This document shows, piece by piece, positions 2,149 to 26,362 of a stretch of 32,526 bases of DNA. This stretch comes from a virus. The stretch covers positions 1-32,526 of IMG/VR virus record IMGVR_UViG_3300048838_001496. One strand, 5' to 3'. Within the stretch, counting starts at the first letter, position 1. Each line of letters opens with the position of its first letter. A program made the position numbers and the translations under genes. Below the pieces are notes generated by a model, which worked only from the letters and a program-made list of their open reading frames with translations, had not been told where the DNA came from and ran no database searches.

Positions 2149-2316
2149 ATGAAGGCAAAAGGAATCATAATCCGGGGCAGTGTGGTGGTATTGGTTTGTG
2201 CCATATTGGTAGGTGTGGCCGTGGTTGAGCCCCGGATTTTGATTTTGTATGCTGGTATTGTGATAGTTGTAGGCTTCTTTTTTTGGTTGACAAATAAATT
2301 TTCTCGGGAATTATGA
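2149..2316 (+). CDS. Small two-helix membrane protein
   Basis: A 55-residue ORF beginning MKAKGIIIRGSVVVLV. Two hydrophobic stretches (about residues 6-26 and 31-47) are separated by the turn VEPRI, so it is probably a hairpin in the inner membrane with a basic tail (TNKFSREL). It starts 2 nt after the LuxR-type gene, and its stop is shared as ATGA with the ATG at 2313. Function unknown; small membrane proteins in this position are often exclusion or holin-like, but nothing here proves that. Confidence 0.55.
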   Translation: MKAKGIIIRGSVVVLVCAILVGVAVVEPRILILYAGIVIVVGFFFWLTNKFSREL

Positions 2317-2324
2317 AAAAAAGC

Positions 2325-2355
2325 TTGACAATTCTTGTAATCTGTTGTATGTTTG
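2325..2355 (+). promoter_or_regulatory. Bacteroidota-type promoter of RNA module 1
   Basis: TTGAC at 2325-2329 and TATGTTTG at 2348-2355 match the Bacteroidota sigma consensus (TTTG about 19-21 nt before TAnnTTTG). The same boxes with the same spacing recur at 4786-4816, although the 18 nt between them differ. Transcription would start a few nt downstream, at the 5' arm of the structured RNA. Confidence 0.7.
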
Positions 2356-2557
2356 CTCCCGCTATACATACTCAAGGGCGAGTACCAGCTCGCCAAACTA
2401 CAGCGGGCTTTTTTTATGCTCCTGTAAAAGGATATGGTTCAGTACCCCCGTGTGTGGCCGTAATAGCCCCACTGCCCTTGAGGTGTATAGCAACGGGAAA
2501 GGCTGAACCGTTTTTTATTTCAGCCAACAAACAATGGTGTTCTGTAATGCTATACAC
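2356..2557 (+). ncRNA. C4-like antisense/leader RNA, copy 1
   Basis: Downstream of the promoter an outer stem forms between 2361-2379 (GCTATACA, bulge TA, CTCAAGGGC) and 2474-2491 (GCCCTTGAG, bulge G, TGTATAGC). Inside are a GGCGAG/CTCGCC hairpin (2377-2394, which competes for three bases of the outer stem), a TACAG/CTGTA hairpin (2399-2426) and a weaker GTG-GG/CC-CAC stem, giving a cloverleaf. The word recurs a third time at 2549-2557 (GCTATACAC), fully complementary to 2483-2491. A second pair, GGTTCAG at 2436-2442 and CTGAACC at 2503-2509, can also join. Two antisense segments facing two downstream targets, ahead of an antirepressor-type gene, is the plan of the C4 RNA of P1/P7 (Rfam RF01695). 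The structure is seen in the sequence; the homology is inference. Confidence 0.65.
2492..2516 (+). terminator. Terminator-like hairpin within the leader
   Basis: AACGG (2492-2496) pairs with CCGTT (2508-2512) around an 11-nt loop and is followed by a short T-run. The right arm shares bases with the CTGAACC segment (2503-2509), so pairing of that segment with 2436-2442 would open this hairpin. The same hairpin is present at 4953-4977. The 5-bp stem is short, so it may act as a pause or attenuator rather than a full stop. Confidence 0.4.
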
Positions 2558-2618
2558 AGAAAACACTTGTTTGCAGAGGAACAATAGTACTCTGCCGGCA
2601 ACGACCACAGCCAGCGAA

Positions 2619-2831
2619 ATGGCTGCCCCCCTAACCCACGTACAAACCCTCGATGATTTCACCGGCATTATGCAGGTGCAAGGTTGTACGCATGTAAAAA
2701 TCCACTTCAAAGCCCGCAAGGTAACCATCGGCTTCCGCAGAGACGGCCGTGGCTATGGCGTGCGCGGCAATTCCCTCACAGAAGCCTTTATGGCTGTGGT
2801 GCACATGATCAGTAATCCTTTAACCGCTTAA
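2619..2831 (+). CDS. 70-residue protein between C4-like RNA and KilA-N gene, copy 1
   Basis: The frame is open from an ATG at 2313, which would give 172 residues, but the first 102 codons coincide with the promoter and the folded RNA. I therefore place the start at ATG 2619 (MAAPLTHVQTLDDFTGIMQV). The product is a small alpha/beta-type protein with a basic middle (KIHFKARKVTIGFRRDGRG). It ends 3 nt before the KilA-N gene, so translation is probably coupled. In P1 the C4 RNA blocks a short ORF (icd) whose translation is needed for ant expression; this ORF occupies the equivalent place (inference). Copy 2 is at 5080-5292. The family is not recognised. Confidence 0.55.
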   Translation: MAAPLTHVQTLDDFTGIMQVQGCTHVKIHFKARKVTIGFRRDGRGYGVRGNSLTEAFMAVVHMISNPLTA

Positions 2832-2834
2832 ACC

Positions 2835-3374
2835 ATGGAAGTAGTACAATTTATTTACAACGAAAGAACCATAGACTTCGAACCCTCAGGGAAAGATAAC
2901 GTGATGGTAAACGCCACCCAAATGGCGAAGGTGTTTGGGAAACATGTTAAACATTTTAATGAAAATGAAGACACCGAAAACTTCATTAATGCATGCTTAA
3001 AAAGTCGGAATTCCGACTTTTTAGGAATCAAAACGCGTGATGATTTGATCATTTCAAAGCAAAAATCTGGCACCTGGATGCACCGAATTCTAGCTTTGAA
3101 ATTTGCGGCATGGCTTGATCCAGATTTTGAGGTTTGGGTATTCTCAACCATCGACAAGATCATCCTTGGCCATTATTACGAGCAGAAGGAAGCCACTATT
3201 GAAAAGCTCACCTACCAGGAAGAGATGAAGCAATTGCGTGATGAGATCCTTGCTGAATCGCCAAAGTTCGCCTTGTACCTTGAAAAGGAGAAAAGAATCA
3301 GTGCTGCTGAACTGAAACGAATGAAAGCCACACGTGCGGCCACCAATCAGTTAAAACTTCAACTCTATCCTTAG
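2835..3374 (+). CDS. KilA-N domain protein, putative antirepressor 1
   Basis: 179 residues. KilA-N signatures are clear: MVNATQMAKVFGKHVKHF (about 24-42), then KSGTWMHRILALKFAAWLDP and FEVWVFSTIDKIILG (about 76-112). The remaining 65 residues are charged and helical. KilA-N proteins are DNA-binding phage proteins and many are antirepressors. The stretch between the two signatures is a variable loop, and here it contains a 26-bp perfect DNA palindrome that encodes KSRNSDFL. The first 110 bp are almost identical to the paralogue at 5296, and then the two diverge sharply. It follows the 70-residue ORF by 3 nt, under the C4-like leader. Confidence 0.8.
   Translation: MEVVQFIYNERTIDFEPSGKDNVMVNATQMAKVFGKHVKHFNENEDTENFINACLKSRNSDFLGIKTRDDLIISKQKSGTWMHRILALKFAAWLDPDFEVWVFSTIDKIILGHYYEQKEATIEKLTYQEEMKQLRDEILAESPKFALYLEKEKRISAAELKRMKATRAATNQLKLQLYP
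2998..3023. repeat. 26-bp perfect palindrome inside KilA-N gene 1
   Basis: Arms TAAAAAGTCGGAA (2998-3010) and TTCCGACTTTTTA (3011-3023) are exact complements with no spacer. It lies in the loop-coding part of the KilA-N domain. The same plan (AAAGT, two variable bases, GAATTC core, ACTTT) occurs at 6194-6213 in the downstream array, in the same codon phase. Confidence 0.9.
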
Positions 3375-3417
3375 ACTTAATCAGTGTCATTTAGTATCAA
3401 TCATCAATTTACATATC

Positions 3418-3720
3418 ATGTCAGATTTAATCAATGTCGAAAACGAAATCAGACGATTGCACAAACTAAGAATGTTGCAACTAAAGATTTCTGATGAAAT
3501 ATCCAGAATGGAGCAGCCGCTTATTGGTATGCTGGACGCCAACGGTAAAAAGTTGGTTAAGCATGGAAAAGTAGCGGTAGAAATACAGTTGTTGGAAGAC
3601 AAAATCAACGAGAGAGAACAGAAAATGAAAGAAGTTCTTGATAGAGTTGATTTGATTCTCGATGAATATGATGCGCTCCTTTCTGATGATGAATTATTCT
3701 TTGACTTAGAGGAGGAATAA
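3418..3720 (+). CDS. Small coiled-coil protein, unknown function
   Basis: 100 residues, strongly charged and almost wholly helical, with heptad-like spacing (IRRLHKLRMLQLKISDEI and LLEDKINEREQKMKEVLDRV) and a very acidic tail (DDELFFDLEEE). It is probably a coiled-coil protein. It lies 43 bp after KilA-N gene 1, in a four-gene block that separates the two RNA/KilA-N modules. I do not recognise the family. Confidence 0.6.
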   Translation: MSDLINVENEIRRLHKLRMLQLKISDEISRMEQPLIGMLDANGKKLVKHGKVAVEIQLLEDKINEREQKMKEVLDRVDLILDEYDALLSDDELFFDLEEE

Positions 3721-3723
3721 ACT

Positions 3724-4053
3724 ATGAACGCTTTCAGAACACGTGGCAGGAGCTGGCTGGAAGGGGTGTTACGGCAACGTGCGCACCTCGACAGAGCAGG
3801 ATTAAGCCAGGGCGATATAGCTCATCGCCGTGAAAACTGGCAGCGAATCAGGGTCAACCTGGATGCCAACTCATTACCCTCTGATGAGTTGATGGCCCGA
3901 TTCATCCTCAGGTACGAAGCGGAGATTGCCAGTCTCCTGCCCGGTTCGGGAAGCAAAACACACAGGGCCGCATGGCTCAAATTTTTATCAATCACTCAAG
4001 AAGCAAAACAGATATGGAAGAACAAGCCCATTATGGCCGCAAGACTGGCATGA
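3724..4053 (+). CDS. Hypothetical protein, basic, helical
   Basis: 109 residues, rich in Arg and Trp (RTRGRSWLEGVLRQRAHL; ENWQRIRVNL). No known domain recognised. It starts 3 nt after the coiled-coil gene, and its stop overlaps the next ATG as ATGA at 4050-4053, showing translational coupling. The composition is GC-richer than the previous gene. Confidence 0.6.
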   Translation: MNAFRTRGRSWLEGVLRQRAHLDRAGLSQGDIAHRRENWQRIRVNLDANSLPSDELMARFILRYEAEIASLLPGSGSKTHRAAWLKFLSITQEAKQIWKNKPIMAARLA

Positions 4054-4241
4054 CCAGCCGGCCAAGTGCCGAAGAACTGGCACAAGCCATTACCCGAATC
4101 CGTGAGATTGGGGTGACCACCAAACAGAACCTTTTCCTTGATGAAGACCGCACCGGTGTGGCCATCGATGCACAGAACCAGGCACTGCTGGAAACTGCAG
4201 TGGAGCAGATGGTGAAAATCACCGACCTGTATTTCACGTGA
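4050..4241 (+). CDS. Hypothetical 63-residue protein
   Basis: The frame is open further upstream (from 3972), but ATG 4050 makes the ATGA overlap typical of this operon and is preferred. The product begins MTSRPSAEELAQAITRIREI and is a small acidic helical protein. No family recognised. Its stop overlaps a GTG start at 4238. Confidence 0.55.
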   Translation: MTSRPSAEELAQAITRIREIGVTTKQNLFLDEDRTGVAIDAQNQALLETAVEQMVKITDLYFT

Positions 4242-4777
4242 GCTTCCTTGATCTGATGGAAGCCTGGCCACGGGAAGCCATAACCGACGATTCCCCCGAG
4301 GCCTCAGAGACCAGGTGCCCGGCCTGTTATAAAAAGCGGTTCCAGTGTGGCCGGTGTGGGTACCAAGACCAAGTAATCAATACAAAACAACAGTTAATAC
4401 ATCATCTGGGGATGAAACGAAACAAACACTTCATATTGGTTGAGCACCAGAATAAGGATATGTTCAAGTTTGCACAGGCAATCATTGAGCAGGAGAATGG
4501 TTCATTGCAATTCACACATATTGGTGCTAAAGGCTTTCTGCATGACACCAATATTGAATCGGTGGAGTGGACCTTCTCAAACAAGTGGATTATGGTAAGT
4601 CACTGCACCATCGATGATATTCTAAAGATCAGTCAGATATCGAAGGCCTATAAAACCGGGCATACCATCATATTCATGACCAGTGAACGGCCAACCGAAG
4701 AGATGCATAACAACTACCGGGTGCTGATCGCCGATGGAACGAAAACCAACACCAGCGCCAAAAACGAAGAAAAATGA
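4238..4777 (+). CDS. Zinc-ribbon-containing hypothetical protein
   Basis: 179 residues starting at GTG 4238 (GTGA overlap with the previous stop). Near the N-terminus two CxxC knuckles (CPAC and CGRCG, about residues 27-41) look like a zinc ribbon. The remaining 135 residues resemble a compact alpha/beta domain (MKRNKHFILVEHQNKDMF onward) that I cannot assign. An internal ATG before MKRNKHF could give a separate product. Its stop overlaps the first codon of the second module as ATGA at 4774-4777. Confidence 0.6.
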   Translation: MSFLDLMEAWPREAITDDSPEASETRCPACYKKRFQCGRCGYQDQVINTKQQLIHHLGMKRNKHFILVEHQNKDMFKFAQAIIEQENGSLQFTHIGAKGFLHDTNIESVEWTFSNKWIMVSHCTIDDILKISQISKAYKTGHTIIFMTSERPTEEMHNNYRVLIADGTKTNTSAKNEEK

Positions 4778-4785
4778 AAAAAAGC

Positions 4786-4816
4786 TTGACTTTCATTTTT
4801 ATCTGTTGTATGTTTG
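4786..4816 (+). promoter_or_regulatory. Bacteroidota-type promoter of RNA module 2
   Basis: TTGAC (4786-4790) and TATGTTTG (4809-4816) have the same spacing as in module 1. The boxes are unchanged while the spacer between them has many substitutions, which supports selection on the promoter rather than on the reading frame that passes through it. Confidence 0.7.
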
Positions 4817-5018
4817 CTCCCGCATTCCATACACAAGGGCGAGTACCAGCTCGCCAAACTACAGCGGGCTATTTTTATGCTCCTGTAAAAGGATATGGTT
4901 CAGTACCCCCGTGTGGAGGCTTAATGGCCCCACTGCCCTTGTGGTGGAATGCAACGGGAAAGGCTGAACCGTTTTTTATTTCAGCCAACAAACAATGGTA
5001 TTCTGTAATGCATTCCAC
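4817..5018 (+). ncRNA. C4-like antisense/leader RNA, copy 2
   Basis: Aligned to copy 1 without gaps (offset 2461). The outer stem is 4822-4840 (GCATTCCA, TA, CACAAGGGC) with 4935-4952 (GCCCTTGTG, G, TGGAATGC). Relative to copy 1, the base pairs at TAT-A/ATT-C and T/A in the stem are replaced on both arms, giving four compensatory changes. The third occurrence, at 5010-5018, changes to GCATTCCAC and stays fully complementary to 4944-4952. GGTTCAG (4897-4903) and CTGAACC (4964-4970) are unchanged. Covariation across two paralogous copies is direct evidence for a functional fold, and for pairing specificity that differs between modules. Confidence 0.7.
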
Positions 5019-5079
5019 AGAAAACACTTGTTTACAGAGGAATAATAGTACTCTGTTGGCAACGACCACAGCCAGCGAA

Positions 5080-5292
5080 ATGGCTGCCCCCCTCAACCAG
5101 TTACAAACCCTCGATGATTTTACCGGCATTATGCAGGTGAAAGGTTGTACACAGGTAAAAATCCACTTCAAAGCCCGCAAAGTAACCATCGGCTTCCGCA
5201 AAGAAGGCCGTGGCTATGGCGTGCGCGGCAATTCCCTCACAGAAGCCTTTCAGGCTGTGGTACACATGATCACAAACCCATTAACCGCTTAA
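5080..5292 (+). CDS. 70-residue protein between C4-like RNA and KilA-N gene, copy 2
   Basis: Paralogue of 2619-2831, with the start placed at ATG 5080 (MAAPLNQLQTLDDFTGIMQV) for the same reason: upstream codons back to 4774 overlie the promoter and the folded RNA. The C-terminal parts of the two copies differ mainly by conservative replacements (RRDGRG to RKEGRG) and silent changes, as expected for a real protein. Upstream of the ATG the differences follow RNA pairing instead. It ends 3 nt before KilA-N gene 2. Confidence 0.55.
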   Translation: MAAPLNQLQTLDDFTGIMQVKGCTQVKIHFKARKVTIGFRKEGRGYGVRGNSLTEAFQAVVHMITNPLTA

Positions 5293-5295
5293 ATC

Positions 5296-5847
5296 ATGGA
5301 AGTAGTACAATTTATTTACAACGAGAAAACCATCGACTTTGAACCCGCAGGGAAAGATAACGTGATGGTAAACGCCACCCAAATGGCGAAGGTATTTGGG
5401 AAAAGAGTAGATCATTTCTTGAGATCTGACCATGCAAATGAGTTTATAAATGTTCTTTTAATCACCCCATATGGGGGGAATAAAGCTGCATTTACCAGGG
5501 ATGAAATTGTATTCTCGAACAAAAAAGGTGGCACCTGGATGCATCGACTCTTGGCACTAAAATTTGCAGCTTGGTTGGATCCCGCATTTGAGCTTTGGGT
5601 ATTTGCTACCATTGACAAGATCATCTTGGGGCATTACAAAGAAGTACGCTCTGCTAATGAAGAGGAAGCACAAAAAGAACATCGATACAAGATGTTGAAG
5701 CGTGCGCACCTTGAAAAACACCCTGACTACGAGGAAGTTTTACAGGCAGAAGCGGAGCTGAGTGTTGCCAGCAGGAAAAGGATGAAGGCTGTAAGAGTTG
5801 ATCGCATGCAGACAAAGCTTGATTTGTTTCCCAATTCTGTAAAATAG
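5296..5847 (+). CDS. KilA-N domain protein, putative antirepressor 2
   Basis: 183 residues with the same architecture as copy 1: MVNATQMAKVFGKRVDHF, then KGGTWMHRLLALKFAAWLDP and FELWVFATIDKIILG. The loop between them differs completely in sequence (FINVLLITPYGGNKAAFTRD) and is again encoded around a palindrome, here CCCCATATGGGG. The helical C-terminus is related to copy 1 but diverged. Two antirepressors with different loops under two RNAs with different pairing words suggest specialisation, for example against different repressors or superinfecting phages (inference). Confidence 0.8.
   Translation: MEVVQFIYNEKTIDFEPAGKDNVMVNATQMAKVFGKRVDHFLRSDHANEFINVLLITPYGGNKAAFTRDEIVFSNKKGGTWMHRLLALKFAAWLDPAFELWVFATIDKIILGHYKEVRSANEEEAQKEHRYKMLKRAHLEKHPDYEEVLQAEAELSVASRKRMKAVRVDRMQTKLDLFPNSVK
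5465..5476. repeat. Palindrome inside KilA-N gene 2
   Basis: CCCCATATGGGG is a perfect palindrome at the core of a longer imperfect one (about 5455-5486, 15-nt arms with three mismatches). It encodes TPYGG. Related palindromes encoding FTPYGVN and FPPYGGN, in the same codon phase, occur at 5998-6023 and 6042-6069. Confidence 0.8.
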
Positions 5848-5856
5848 CTCAACTTA

Positions 5857-6591
5857 ATGAACCAACCCGCAAACACTAAAACACTGGACGTTATAGCTTC
5901 CCCCATTTGGGGGAAGCTTGCTCTGGCTACCAGTAAAGTCAGGAAAACCTGTACACACTTAGGGTGTTCAGATAACAAGTGCCGTGTTTTGTCTCCATTA
6001 TTTACACCGTATGGTGTAAATAAAACTGCCATGAGCGGAGCTGAATTTCCTCCATATGGGGGAAATTCAACCGCCACCCTGAGCGTGGCAGTTGAGGTGA
6101 TCATCACCTCAACTGGGGTGCTGGGCACCGCAGTTGAATCAAAAAACCCATATGTGGGTTTCTTGAACAGTGTTCAGAAACAAGTTGAAGTAAAAAGTGA
6201 GAATTCTCACTTTCTGTGGACAAAAAAGTCCACAGATTTTGGAAAAAATTCAACTCTGTTGATAAAAAAGCGGGGATTCCCGTTTTTTGAACACTGTTCA
6301 TCAAACGATAAACCGTACAGATTTTGTAAAACAATCCCCTATGGTGACAAACTGTATGGGAAAAACCATACAGAATTGCCAAAACTGAACAAACTGGTGC
6401 GAAAAAACACACCAGTTTTTCAAGAATCTAGTAATTCAACCGCCGCCCTCAGCACGGCGGTTGATACCACCTTGCCAACCATTAAGTTCAGCTTGATGGT
6501 TGATCACACCTATTCAGTTGCCACGCTCAGGGAGGCAACTGAATGTAGTAGCAGCCACAGTGGTAGAATTACCCAGCCTAAAACGATTTAG
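5857..6591 (+). CDS. Open frame spanning the palindrome array, 244 codons
   Basis: It starts 9 nt after KilA-N gene 2 and stays open for 244 codons, which is unlikely by chance in AT-rich DNA. The product is not recognisable as a folded protein. It is a string of short peptides made by inverted repeats: SPIWGK, FTPYGVN, FPPYGGN, KSENSHFL, KKRGFPFF, and a recurrent TATLSVAVE / TGVLGTAVE / TAALSTAVD / VATLREATE motif. KSENSHFL and TPYG-type peptides match the palindrome-encoded loops of KilA-N genes 1 and 2. It may be a translated low-complexity protein, or an array kept in frame because its units come from coding loops. Confidence 0.4.
   Translation: MNQPANTKTLDVIASPIWGKLALATSKVRKTCTHLGCSDNKCRVLSPLFTPYGVNKTAMSGAEFPPYGGNSTATLSVAVEVIITSTGVLGTAVESKNPYVGFLNSVQKQVEVKSENSHFLWTKKSTDFGKNSTLLIKKRGFPFFEHCSSNDKPYRFCKTIPYGDKLYGKNHTELPKLNKLVRKNTPVFQESSNSTAALSTAVDTTLPTIKFSLMVDHTYSVATLREATECSSSHSGRITQPKTI
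5895..6544. repeat. Dense array of at least 15 different inverted repeats
   Basis: Inverted repeats seen: 5895-5918, 5998-6023 (11-bp arms), 6042-6069 (14-bp arms, one mismatch), 6067-6095, 6089-6115 (13-bp arms), 6109-6137, 6144-6161, 6164-6176, 6194-6213 (20-bp perfect), 6213-6236 (9-bp arms), 6250-6262, 6264-6288, 6288-6300, 6352-6373, 6391-6418, 6436-6464 (10-bp arms), 6476-6502 and 6512-6544 (11-bp arms). They fall into families: cores CCNTATGG or CATATG; GAATTC or GGATTCC cores; TGAACA-N-TGTTCA (twice); and CAACYGCC stems with CTGAG/CTCAG loops (four). Arms differ between members, so these are not simple copies. Confidence 0.85.
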
Positions 6592-23815: not shown

Positions 23816-24734
23816 TGAGCAGCTAACTCTTGTAGAACAGTTCGCAGGAATTGGTTTTTTGCCCAGGAAAATCGGTATTACCTTGGGTATTCCCTTCCGA
23901 CTGCTCAAGTGGTTTATTCAGGAGATGCAGACCGAAGGCACAGCCTTGAACCTTCGGTACCTGAAAGGGCAATACCTGACAGAAGCCAATGCCAGGAAGA
24001 ATCTTACTGACAGCTCCAAAGGAAGCTTCACTGCTTTCAAAGAGATGCGTGAGCTTCAAAAGGAGACAGAGGTAGATGAATTGAAGCGAACCCTGGAAGT
24101 AGGTTATTCGCACACCGATGAGCCACAGCTTGCGCTTCGGGCACAGTACAAGGATAGTCTTGAAAACTACCTTGCACTCAAAGAGTTCATTACCAAAGGG
24201 AGTTCTAACGATCTCCCTGCAAACCTGCAGGAGTACTGGACCCGGTTGTCATGTGCCCATGACCTTATCAGCAACTTCAATAACCGGGCAAAGGGAAGGA
24301 AGTATGTTGTACGTCAGCTTCGCTTGAAGTACCCCGATATTACAGAGAACACCGCCTACAGGTTGATCAACGAAGCAGTGAGCTTCTTTAATACTGACCT
24401 GGATAAAAACCAATGGCGGAACATCCTTACCGAATCGCTTGACAAAGTGATTGCAGTAAGCTGGAAACTGAACCGCATGGACTGGATAATCAAAGCCATC
24501 AGGGAACAGGCCGAAATTCAAGGGCTCAAGATTCCGGATCCTGAACCTATTCCGGAAGAGCTTCTCGCACAGAAGACCATCATCATCAACTCCGATCTGA
24601 AACAGCTTGGAGTTGAACCAGTAGACCCCAAAGATTTGATATCAAGAATCAAAAAGTACAACATCAGCAAAGCCGATAAGGAGCGCATTGCCCGAGATGC
24701 CGGCATTCAGGATGTTGAATTCGAAGATGTATGA
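23775..24734 (+). CDS. terS-like: Putative small terminase subunit
   Basis: 319 residues. The start overlaps the PLD-like gene by 41 bp; no other start fits the N-terminal domain. Residues about 10-55 (TDEQLTLVEQFAGIGFLPRK ... LGIPFRLLKWFIQ) resemble an HTH of the kind used by small terminases to recognise DNA. A long helical body follows. It is longer than classical TerS proteins (about 150-200). The call depends mainly on the HTH and on position directly before the large subunit, which it overlaps by 4 nt. Confidence 0.55.
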   Translation: MNSEENGLGIEFTDEQLTLVEQFAGIGFLPRKIGITLGIPFRLLKWFIQEMQTEGTALNLRYLKGQYLTEANARKNLTDSSKGSFTAFKEMRELQKETEVDELKRTLEVGYSHTDEPQLALRAQYKDSLENYLALKEFITKGSSNDLPANLQEYWTRLSCAHDLISNFNNRAKGRKYVVRQLRLKYPDITENTAYRLINEAVSFFNTDLDKNQWRNILTESLDKVIAVSWKLNRMDWIIKAIREQAEIQGLKIPDPEPIPEELLAQKTIIINSDLKQLGVEPVDPKDLISRIKKYNISKADKERIARDAGIQDVEFEDV

Positions 24735-26362
24735 GTGAGGCTACCCAACAATACTTGAACGTTGCCCAGCAACGGGCGCTCCTGATCGATCCACAGATCT
24801 ATCTGGGGTTGCTTGCACGTGGTTCCGGGAAGAGCTTCGGTATCCTGGCGCCGCGTGCCGCCAATGTGTTGTTTGGTATGCCCCGGGGATCGTTTGGGTT
24901 GATTGCCGACACCTATGTGAACGCCATGGCGAAGATTGTTCCCACAATGGTTCAAGGCTGGGAGCATTTCGGATACCGGGAAGGTATCCATTTTGTACGT
25001 GATCAGCGGCCTCCTGATAGCTTTTCCAAGCCGCTGTTTCGAACAAACAGGTTCAAGCATACCATTTCGTGGCGTAATGGGTCAAGGTTTTATCTGATAT
25101 CACAGGACAGGCCGGGAACTGCAAACGGTCTGTCACTGCAGCATTTGTTGGGTGATGAAGTAAAGTTTCTTGATTTCAATAAGCTTCGCACAGAGCTGTT
25201 TCCAACGCTTCGGGGAGAACGTGAACACTTCGGCCGGCACCATCTATACCGAGGGATGACCTTCACCACCGACATGCCCAACATCGAAGATGGGGACTGG
25301 TTGTTCAAGATGGAGCAGAAGATGGACACTGAACAGGTGAAGTTGATTCTTGCTGCATCCATTCAGCATGAGAAGCTAAAGCTCCGCCGGTTGAATGCTA
25401 CCGATGCCATCACCATTGCCCGCTTGGATAAGCAGATAGGAATTTGGCAGCGTGAACTTTCAAAGCTCAGACAGAAGTCGATCTTCTTTGACCAGGCATC
25501 GAGCTTCGTGAACATACACGTCAATGGTCTCGACTATATGGATGACCTGCAGCGTAGCATGGATTTCAGGGAGTTCAGAATGTCATGCCTGAACATCAAG
25601 CCGGATAGTACAGAACAGATGTTCTATTCGGGATTGTCTTCCAAGCACTTCACAACTAATTATGATTATGATTATTATGATGGCTTCTCTTTGCGTGATC
25701 AGATCTGCATCGATAGCCGGGGTGACAAGGATTGTGATCGTCATAAGATATTGTTGGGAGGTCTTGATTTTGGCACAATGAATTCCCTCACGATAGCTCA
25801 GGAACACGGTAAAGAGTTCCGGGTTTTGAAATTCTTCTACACGCTGGATCCTGCGATACTCAAGGATCTAGCTCGGAAGTTTGCTGACTACTACCGTGCC
25901 CATGATGGTAACTCAAAGGTGTTGCGACTGTATTACGATAGGGCAGGCAATGCCAGACGTAACGAGAAGTACACGTTGGCAGAGCAATTCAAGCATGATT
26001 TGGAATCCTTCGGTGAAGGCTGGCGTGTAGATCTCATGAGCATTGGCCAGGGCAATGTGCCACATGCGAATAAAAGGTTGTTGTGGCAGATCATTCTTCA
26101 AGAGAAGAACCCACGCTTCCCATACTTCCGTATGAACGAAGCGAACTGCAGGGAGTTGAAGTCATCGATGCAACTTGCACCGGTGATTGTTGCCCGTGAT
26201 GGAATCAAGAAAGACAAGCGCAGCGAGAAAAAGCGCTTGGAAGACCTACCAATGTATTCCACAAACGCTTCAGATAGCGTTGACTACCTTTGTTGGAGTC
26301 TTTACCAACACTTGTTGCCTCAAAGTGGTCAGGCAGCATACTATGATATCTCCATGGGCTGA
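24731..26362 (+). CDS. terL: Large terminase subunit (packaging ATPase/nuclease)
   Basis: 543 residues. ATPase: Walker A LARGSGKS (28-35) and Walker B LLGDEVKF (139-146; D142, E143). Nuclease, RNase H-like: first Asp in LGGLDFGTMN (D346), second in YYDRAGN (D403), last acidic region NASDSVDYLCW near residue 520. The order and length (about 540) are typical of TerL. It pumps DNA into the prohead through the portal and cuts the concatemer. Unlike most phages, the portal gene is not next: it lies 3.3 kb further on, after a cargo-like stretch. Confidence 0.9.
   Translation: MSEATQQYLNVAQQRALLIDPQIYLGLLARGSGKSFGILAPRAANVLFGMPRGSFGLIADTYVNAMAKIVPTMVQGWEHFGYREGIHFVRDQRPPDSFSKPLFRTNRFKHTISWRNGSRFYLISQDRPGTANGLSLQHLLGDEVKFLDFNKLRTELFPTLRGEREHFGRHHLYRGMTFTTDMPNIEDGDWLFKMEQKMDTEQVKLILAASIQHEKLKLRRLNATDAITIARLDKQIGIWQRELSKLRQKSIFFDQASSFVNIHVNGLDYMDDLQRSMDFREFRMSCLNIKPDSTEQMFYSGLSSKHFTTNYDYDYYDGFSLRDQICIDSRGDKDCDRHKILLGGLDFGTMNSLTIAQEHGKEFRVLKFFYTLDPAILKDLARKFADYYRAHDGNSKVLRLYYDRAGNARRNEKYTLAEQFKHDLESFGEGWRVDLMSIGQGNVPHANKRLLWQIILQEKNPRFPYFRMNEANCRELKSSMQLAPVIVARDGIKKDKRSEKKRLEDLPMYSTNASDSVDYLCWSLYQHLLPQSGQAAYYDISMG

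Follow-up and report, generated by a model that had tools for sequence, protein, structure and literature searches.

Two paralogous modules before the KilA-N genes

We analysed a stretch of viral DNA of 32,526 nucleotides (IMG/VR record IMGVR_UViG_3300048838_001496, positions 1 to 32,526; hereafter the window), in which two genes for KilA-N domain proteins are each preceded by a closely related unit. The units, located at 2313-2831 and 4774-5292, are 519 bp each; an earlier note on this DNA had described them as gapless copies, and the alignment confirmed this with 46 differences (91.1% identity). Each unit carries a six-nucleotide word twice, with its complement in between. In unit 1, TATACA was found at 2363 and 2551 and the complement TGTATA at 2484; in unit 2, ATTCCA was found at 4824 and 5012 and the complement TGGAAT at 4945. 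We hold with considerable confidence that the modules are antisense-RNA switches, each complete in itself and of the kind known from P1 C4, P4 CI and Gifsy-1 IsrK, and that each precedes a leader open reading frame (ORF) and a KilA-N antirepressor gene, which the switch would probably keep silent.

Nine of the 46 differences form three coordinated triplets in word, complement and word (2363, 2364 and 2366; 2486, 2488 and 2489; 2551, 2552 and 2554), and a fourth compensatory pair was present at 2372/2481, where CTCAAG/CTTGAG in unit 1 corresponds to CACAAG/CTTGTG in unit 2. The concerted change of all three word positions and of this stem pair, as claimed in the earlier note, was thus borne out; the positions it gave for the complements were right, and those for the starts of words 1 and 3 were 2 nt too low. 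The pattern of word, complement and word is more than chance. Words 1 and 3 appear to be the targets of an antisense RNA encoded between them. A transcript starting near 2360, as the earlier note expected, would begin at about 2358 with the target a1, and the antisense RNA itself would be the middle element (2433-2519 and 4894-4980). Module 2 has the same layout as module 1, offset 2461 nt downstream. The features of both modules, all on the plus strand, are listed below; R1 is a covariance model that we built from 31 sequences, including both window cores, so that the R1 scores of these two cores are not independent matches.

2325-2355 (+): module 1 promoter, TTG at 2325-2327 and the Bacteroidota -7 box TATGTTTG at 2348-2355, predicted from the sequence
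2358-2415 (+): module 1 predicted leader RNA, with a CCCGC/GCGGGC terminator-like stem and a T-run
2361-2379 (+): module 1 target a1 GCTATACA and b1 CTCAAGGGC, complementary to b'-a' at 2474-2492 (duplex -32.5 kcal/mol)
2433-2519 (+): module 1 C4-like antisense RNA core (R1 80.1 bits, E 2.2e-19, as a training sequence; covariation)
2474-2492 (+): module 1 antisense determinants b' GCCCTTGAG and a' GTGTATAGCA (word match, locus-specific pairing, duplex energies)
2548-2557 (+): module 1 target a2 TGCTATACAC over the start codon, a 10-nt complement of a'
2547-2831 (+): module 1 leader ORF of 94 aa, in an icd/orf45-like position (third-codon-position excess between the copies, p=0.016)
2835-3374 (+): KilA-N domain protein 1, probable antirepressor (Pfam KilA-N 9.1e-18; phrog_129 transcriptional regulator)
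4786-4816 (+): module 2 promoter, TTG and TATGTTTG, predicted on the same basis as that of module 1
4819-4876 (+): module 2 predicted leader RNA with a terminator-like stem (fold -18.3 kcal/mol)
4822-4840 (+): module 2 target a1 GCATTCCA and b1 CACAAGGGC (duplex with its own b'-a' -34.1 kcal/mol)
4894-4980 (+): module 2 C4-like antisense RNA core (R1 91.2 bits, E 2.1e-22, as a training sequence)
4935-4953 (+): module 2 antisense determinants b' GCCCTTGTG and a' GTGGAATGCA (word match, locus-specific pairing, duplex energies)
5009-5018 (+): module 2 target a2 TGCATTCCAC over the start codon, a 10-nt complement of a'
5008-5292 (+): module 2 leader ORF of 94 aa, paralogue of 2547-2831
5296-5847 (+): KilA-N domain protein 2, probable antirepressor (Pfam KilA-N 2.5e-16; phrog_129 5e-25)

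In particular, the stem of the module 1 leader encloses a stretch holding a1 and b1 and a GGCGAG/CTCGCC hairpin, and the predicted fold of -19.8 kcal/mol leaves a1-b1 unpaired; the T-run of the module 2 leader is broken by a single A. The core of module 1 consists of a closing stem, helix 2, a TAAT hairpin, the b' hairpin, the a' strand and a T-run. The ATG at 2547 overlaps a2, with word 3 directly after the ATG, and the matched a2 duplex of this module ranked 1 of 32.

Related loci and locus-specific pairing

When databases were scanned without regard to the words, some 50 related loci emerged, in phages and genomes of Bacteroidota. When 395 genomes were searched with the 172-aa translation of the frame that runs through the whole unit, we found two RNA loci in one genome (L011 and L014), in which the protein-level match lay on the RNA part and stops interrupt the frame. 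The four genome hits of this ORF covered chiefly the RNA part, and three of them contained stops; L012 and L013 were rejected as unrelated, and protein searches with the ORF revealed no phage relatives. Scans of viral contigs with conserved-core patterns, from which the words, stems and flanks were excluded, added about 28 further distinct loci, among which the conservation of core bases partly reflects how they were found. L015, L024 and L046 were dropped as chance pattern matches, and a first DNA pattern, based on the leader region, gave chance matches only, in a Clostridia terminator and a Niabella coding region. With the strict filters used for large genome searches, at which weak matches are lost, R1 matched 3 of 395 Bacteroidota genomes, 7 of 198 genomes in one order and none of 199 genomes in the phylum of a Clostridia genome, which served as a control. 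With one homologue as the blastn query, hits were obtained in a single gut contig and in nine phage records of Porphyromonas gingivalis; twelve copies were confirmed by R1 in the contig together with eight of the nine records. R1 showed the element to be absent near the KilA-N genes of Polaribacter phage Leef_1, Winogradskyella phage Peternella_1, PV4-TP1 and LoVEphage.

The overall architecture was shared by nearly all loci: a TAnnTTTG promoter, a1 and b1 at the 5' end, a terminator-like hairpin and an RNA of about 87 nt, whose complement to the targets sits in the loop of the second hairpin (b') and in the adjoining single strand (a'). In most loci a short ORF follows whose start codon is the site of the second target, a2, and an antirepressor gene often comes next. 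Of 36 loci, 32 had a TAnnTTTG box upstream of the element (expected, 3.5), and the a1 complement started 2-5 nt past the box in 40 of 42 loci, so that a1 should form the very 5' end of the transcript. A T-run of at least five was present between a1 and the core in 38 of the 42 loci.

The consensus fold begins with the closing stem, followed by an invariant helix 2 (CCCGU/ACGGG), a hairpin with a TAAT loop and a short hairpin whose loop is b'; the single-stranded a', the 3' arm of the closing stem and the T-run complete it. The earlier note had proposed a covariance model from homologues, and R1 is such a model. Double changes were found in 17 of 28 pairs, and the covariation score was 0.572, compared with 0.174 for shuffled alignments (reached in 0 of 500) and about 0.09-0.10 when the pairing partners were slid. 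For 16 mostly new sequences the score was 0.629 versus 0.194 shuffled, with helix 2 now showing a double change; in the P. gingivalis members, helix 2 is CCCUC/GAGGG instead. Additionally, the 3' arm can in some loci pair with a short downstream repeat (GGCTGAA/TTCAGCC), and own-locus pairing of this kind exceeded permuted pairing in all but 9 of 20,000 permutations.

For 32 loci found without the words, we compared the 27-nt antisense stretch with the upstream and downstream segments of its own and of the other loci. The mean longest exact complement was 9.69 nt for own and 5.87 nt for other loci upstream, and 8.94 versus 5.60 nt downstream; the corresponding mean duplex energies were -31.9 versus -17.2 kcal/mol and -19.9 versus -14.8 kcal/mol. 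None of 20,000 permutations reached the own-locus means, and in an independent set of 15 loci found later with R1 the observed values were reached in 0, 0, 0 and 9 of 20,000. The upstream target ranked first or second in all 32 loci. Such locus-specific pairing does not readily arise from shared ancestry, because ancestry would make the other loci match too. In some loci, including the window, b2 was weak or absent.

Within the window, the loop of module 1 was predicted to pair with its own a1-b1 at -32.5 kcal/mol and with that of module 2 at -19.6 kcal/mol, while the values for the module 2 loop were -34.1 (own) and -23.1 kcal/mol (other). The a2 pairing followed the same order, at -20.7 versus -9.8 kcal/mol for module 1 and -21.0 versus -13.7 kcal/mol for module 2. 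The word would set which module recognises which, and the claim of the earlier note that the two modules do not cross-regulate is favoured at the level of these predicted energies. Four word alleles (TCATACA, CATTCCA, TCCTACA and CCTTACA) were present in otherwise similar P. gingivalis phages, and each allele agreed in a1, a' and a2, except that two modules have G in place of A in their a2. One of these phages carries three tandem modules with three words, and another carries two modules. In a six-by-six energy table of P. gingivalis modules, the matched pair was best in every row for both targets, although TCATACA and TCCTACA remained close in their a1-b1 energies. Absence of covariation of the three words in homologues would, according to the earlier note, have spoken against its proposal; we found that all three covary across dozens of loci, and likewise across the allelic P. 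gingivalis modules. Genome G1049 has five copies of the element in two arrays with different words (L067, 1578-2276; L068, 1907-2196). Each array holds one copy without a recognisable a1 or a2, and a genome search for targets of these orphan copies found only the copies themselves.

Comparison with known systems and possible mode of action

The gene order and the fold topology revealed a likeness to the C4 system of phages P1 and P7. In the P1 record, the P1c4 promoter is followed by a1 (48255), b1 (48269), C4 (48343-48419), a2 (48423), b2 (48452), icd (48470) and ant1 (48688). The order of promoter, a1, b1, hairpin with T-run, RNA, a2 (and b2), leader ORF (icd) and antirepressor is the same in both systems; in each, the second hairpin carries b' as its loop, the single strand next to it is a', a closing stem is present, and the words differ between relatives. 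The differences were as follows: in the new modules a2 and the start codon itself overlap, a T-run comes after the closing stem, by which the antisense RNA may be its own terminator, and there are Bacteroidota promoters, tandem arrays and copies before SymE genes. C4 has been listed for Proteobacteria and their phages (Weinberg 2010, PMC2864571); it blocks translation of the antirepressor and underlies P1/P7 heteroimmunity (PMC12197685). No Bacteroidota counterpart was described in the open-licence literature that we searched.

The search of both segments with the Rfam C4 model (RF01695), proposed in the earlier note, gave no match, and the designation C4-type therein holds for gene order and fold topology and not for membership of the Rfam family. 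The model had no match in the window or in 7 loci, whether at the gathering score or with E allowed up to 10, nor at the gathering score in 20 loci, whereas it matched P1, the positive control, at 68.8 bits. Rfam c4-a1b1 (RF03163) and, weakly, isrK (RF01394) also matched P1, and neither model had a match in the window and the tested loci of the new family. Rfam scans at both gathering and permissive cut-offs yielded nothing else of relevance. Conversely, R1 did not find the C4 of P1 even without filters and matched local hairpins only. Because neither model matches the other's tested members, the RNA, which would probably work like C4, is placed in a separate family, absent from Rfam 15, structurally equivalent to C4 and apparently undescribed. 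Descent from an ancestor shared with P1 C4, which would make the RNA a genuine though diverged member of the Rfam C4 family, would account for the identical element order and topology; given the mutual failure of the models and a different core consensus, we consider such descent doubtful.

Two further systems are alike in part. In Gifsy-1, the target of short IsrK is its own read-through transcript, with which it pairs and which it activates; a small ORF in this transcript is coupled to the antirepressor. The genes activated are orf45-anrP, and P4 SeqA is named by the authors as a structural homologue of IsrK (PMC4825925). The IsrK/STnc1160/orf45/anrP arrangement of a short leader RNA, an intrinsic terminator, a complementary RNA downstream and a small ORF coupled to an antirepressor (PMC4825925) resembles the layout of the present modules, whose leader terminator and transcripts are predicted; the leader fold and sequences differ. 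Phage P4, with CI, seqA and seqC, likewise uses one antisense stretch with targets up- and downstream, by the description in PMC4825925, but controls replication genes by transcription termination.

As a possible mechanism, transcription would start from the promoter at a1, and many transcripts would stop at the hairpin and T-run at about 2403-2415; the resulting short leader RNA would have a1-b1 accessible. Transcripts that read through would yield the C4-like RNA (2433-2519), whose b' loop and a' strand would pair with a2 over the AUG and block translation of the 94-aa leader ORF, and this block would extend to the antirepressor behind it by coupling or polarity. Since the same loop is predicted to pair more strongly with a1-b1, the leader could be a sponge or activator, like short IsrK, or a second repression site, like P4 seqA. 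The layout of the sequence, the covariation of fold and words, the position of the promoter and the genes downstream were observed directly; from these we infer the transcripts, the direction of regulation, the orthogonality of the modules and a role in lysogeny.

Several observations weigh against this mechanism. The pairing of a2 is weaker than that of a1-b1, cofolding with the whole C4-like RNA predicted no net gain for a2, and the long transcript was predicted to fold a1-b1 onto b'-a' in cis with a2 unpaired, so that an 'on' default is possible. The a2 match was poor in several loci, such as L034 and L045, about half of the loci had no recognised antirepressor among the ORFs examined, and, with neither RF01695 nor R1 matching across, shared descent with P1 C4 is at most a possibility. 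As whole-RNA cofolding favours a1-b1 over a2, control probably rests on the ratio of leader to antisense RNA.

A rival reading is activation of the IsrK type, in which the read-through messenger RNA is silent and the short leader captures the complement in trans through a1-b1, turning the leader ORF and the antirepressor on. We regard this as a real possibility, somewhat short of an even chance. The leader has a predicted terminator and an exposed a1-b1 with the strongest pairing to b'-a' (-32.5 and -34.1 kcal/mol), the short IsrK acting on orf45-anrP provides a precedent (PMC4825925), and the Rfam isrK model overlaps the a1-b1 stretch of P1; taken alone, this reading leaves the independent C4-type fold of the middle RNA and its own T-run unexplained. 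It is compatible with the antisense switch proposed here and not exclusive of it, and the RNA of the 5' leader could serve as a short activator of the IsrK type. Termination of the P4 type, in which the C4-like RNA would act on nascent a1-b1 and promote termination at the leader hairpin, appears rather unlikely: the stronger and more constant pairing of a1-b1, first or second upstream in all 32 loci, and the T-runs in 38 of 42 loci agree with it, but the conservation of a2 at the start codon (0 of 20,000) would not be explained. That a 172-aa protein is encoded through the whole unit, with the pairing as a by-product, is very improbable. The frame is indeed open at 2313-2831 in both copies and through the RNA in L021, L042 and the P. 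gingivalis modules; however, 26 of 35 loci have it closed, either within the core or past it, the RNA fold has compensatory base pairs, and the putative signal peptide of the ORF starting at 2313 overlies the promoter. Third-position bias was lacking over the RNA part (p=0.125) and present for the 94-aa ORF (p=0.016), and the substitution pattern therefore supports coding only from 2547 onwards.

Downstream genes, surroundings and significance

Downstream of the element, the antirepressor types KilA-N, KilAC/ANT, Bro-N, AntA, pRha and P22_AR_N were found in many loci, usually behind a small ORF starting at a2. The leader ORFs of the window (2547-2831 and 5008-5292) and of L028, L042, L043 and L073, which have no Pfam match, are loosely similar at the C-terminus, with a basic strand pair followed by a YG/G-x-S helix; perhaps these small proteins belong to one family. 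In three loci, the ORF behind the element has a SymE domain (PF08845) above the cut-off (L011, 1704-1964; L014, 1650-1928; L069, 2047-2370). The gene for SymR lies on the strand opposite symE; here the antisense RNA is instead upstream on the same strand, and a same-strand antisense toxin-antitoxin arrangement is possible at these three loci, all of them outside the window. The element was present at 2 of 24 SymE loci in the sample of 395 Bacteroidota genomes, and the SymE association is therefore a minority use.

Additional features were observed around the modules. The region at 1-2146 encodes tyrosine-integrase N-terminal domains (minus strand), a Cro/C1-type helix-turn-helix (HTH) protein, a small LacI-like HTH protein and a LuxR-type regulator, and is likely a lysogeny region. 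A 244-aa ORF at 5857-6591 is made up of many short perfect or near-perfect palindromes, with 17 inverted-repeat pairs in 751 bp, and is possibly a sequence-diversification cassette; similar palindromes are present inside both KilA-N genes (near 3005-3025 and 5465-5480), where the two genes differ. The 543-aa protein encoded at 24731-26362 has no Pfam match and is, by position, probably the large terminase. It has homologues, the best at 36% identity, in phages of Porphyromonas, Flavobacterium, Cellulophaga and Polaribacter, which supports a Bacteroidota host.

In the P. gingivalis phages (L103-L110), annotated 'hypothetical protein' genes traverse the RNA modules. In L104, a 347-aa frame stays open across three modules because their spacings of 357 and 354 nt are multiples of three. 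The family explains such spurious genes annotated across these RNAs.

In Bacteroidota phages, the new RNA family is located where genes adjacent to antirepressors begin, and these antirepressors belong to unrelated classes. Its words would amount to a specificity code, readable from sequence, that would predict which prophages are immune to which. We tentatively suggest a mix-and-match RNA immunity, in which related phages of the same host species may have interchangeable modules with different words and stack two or three of them in tandem. A prophage could then keep the antirepressor operons of several types of incoming phage silent, and the same RNA may have been recruited as the antitoxin of chromosomal SymE genes.

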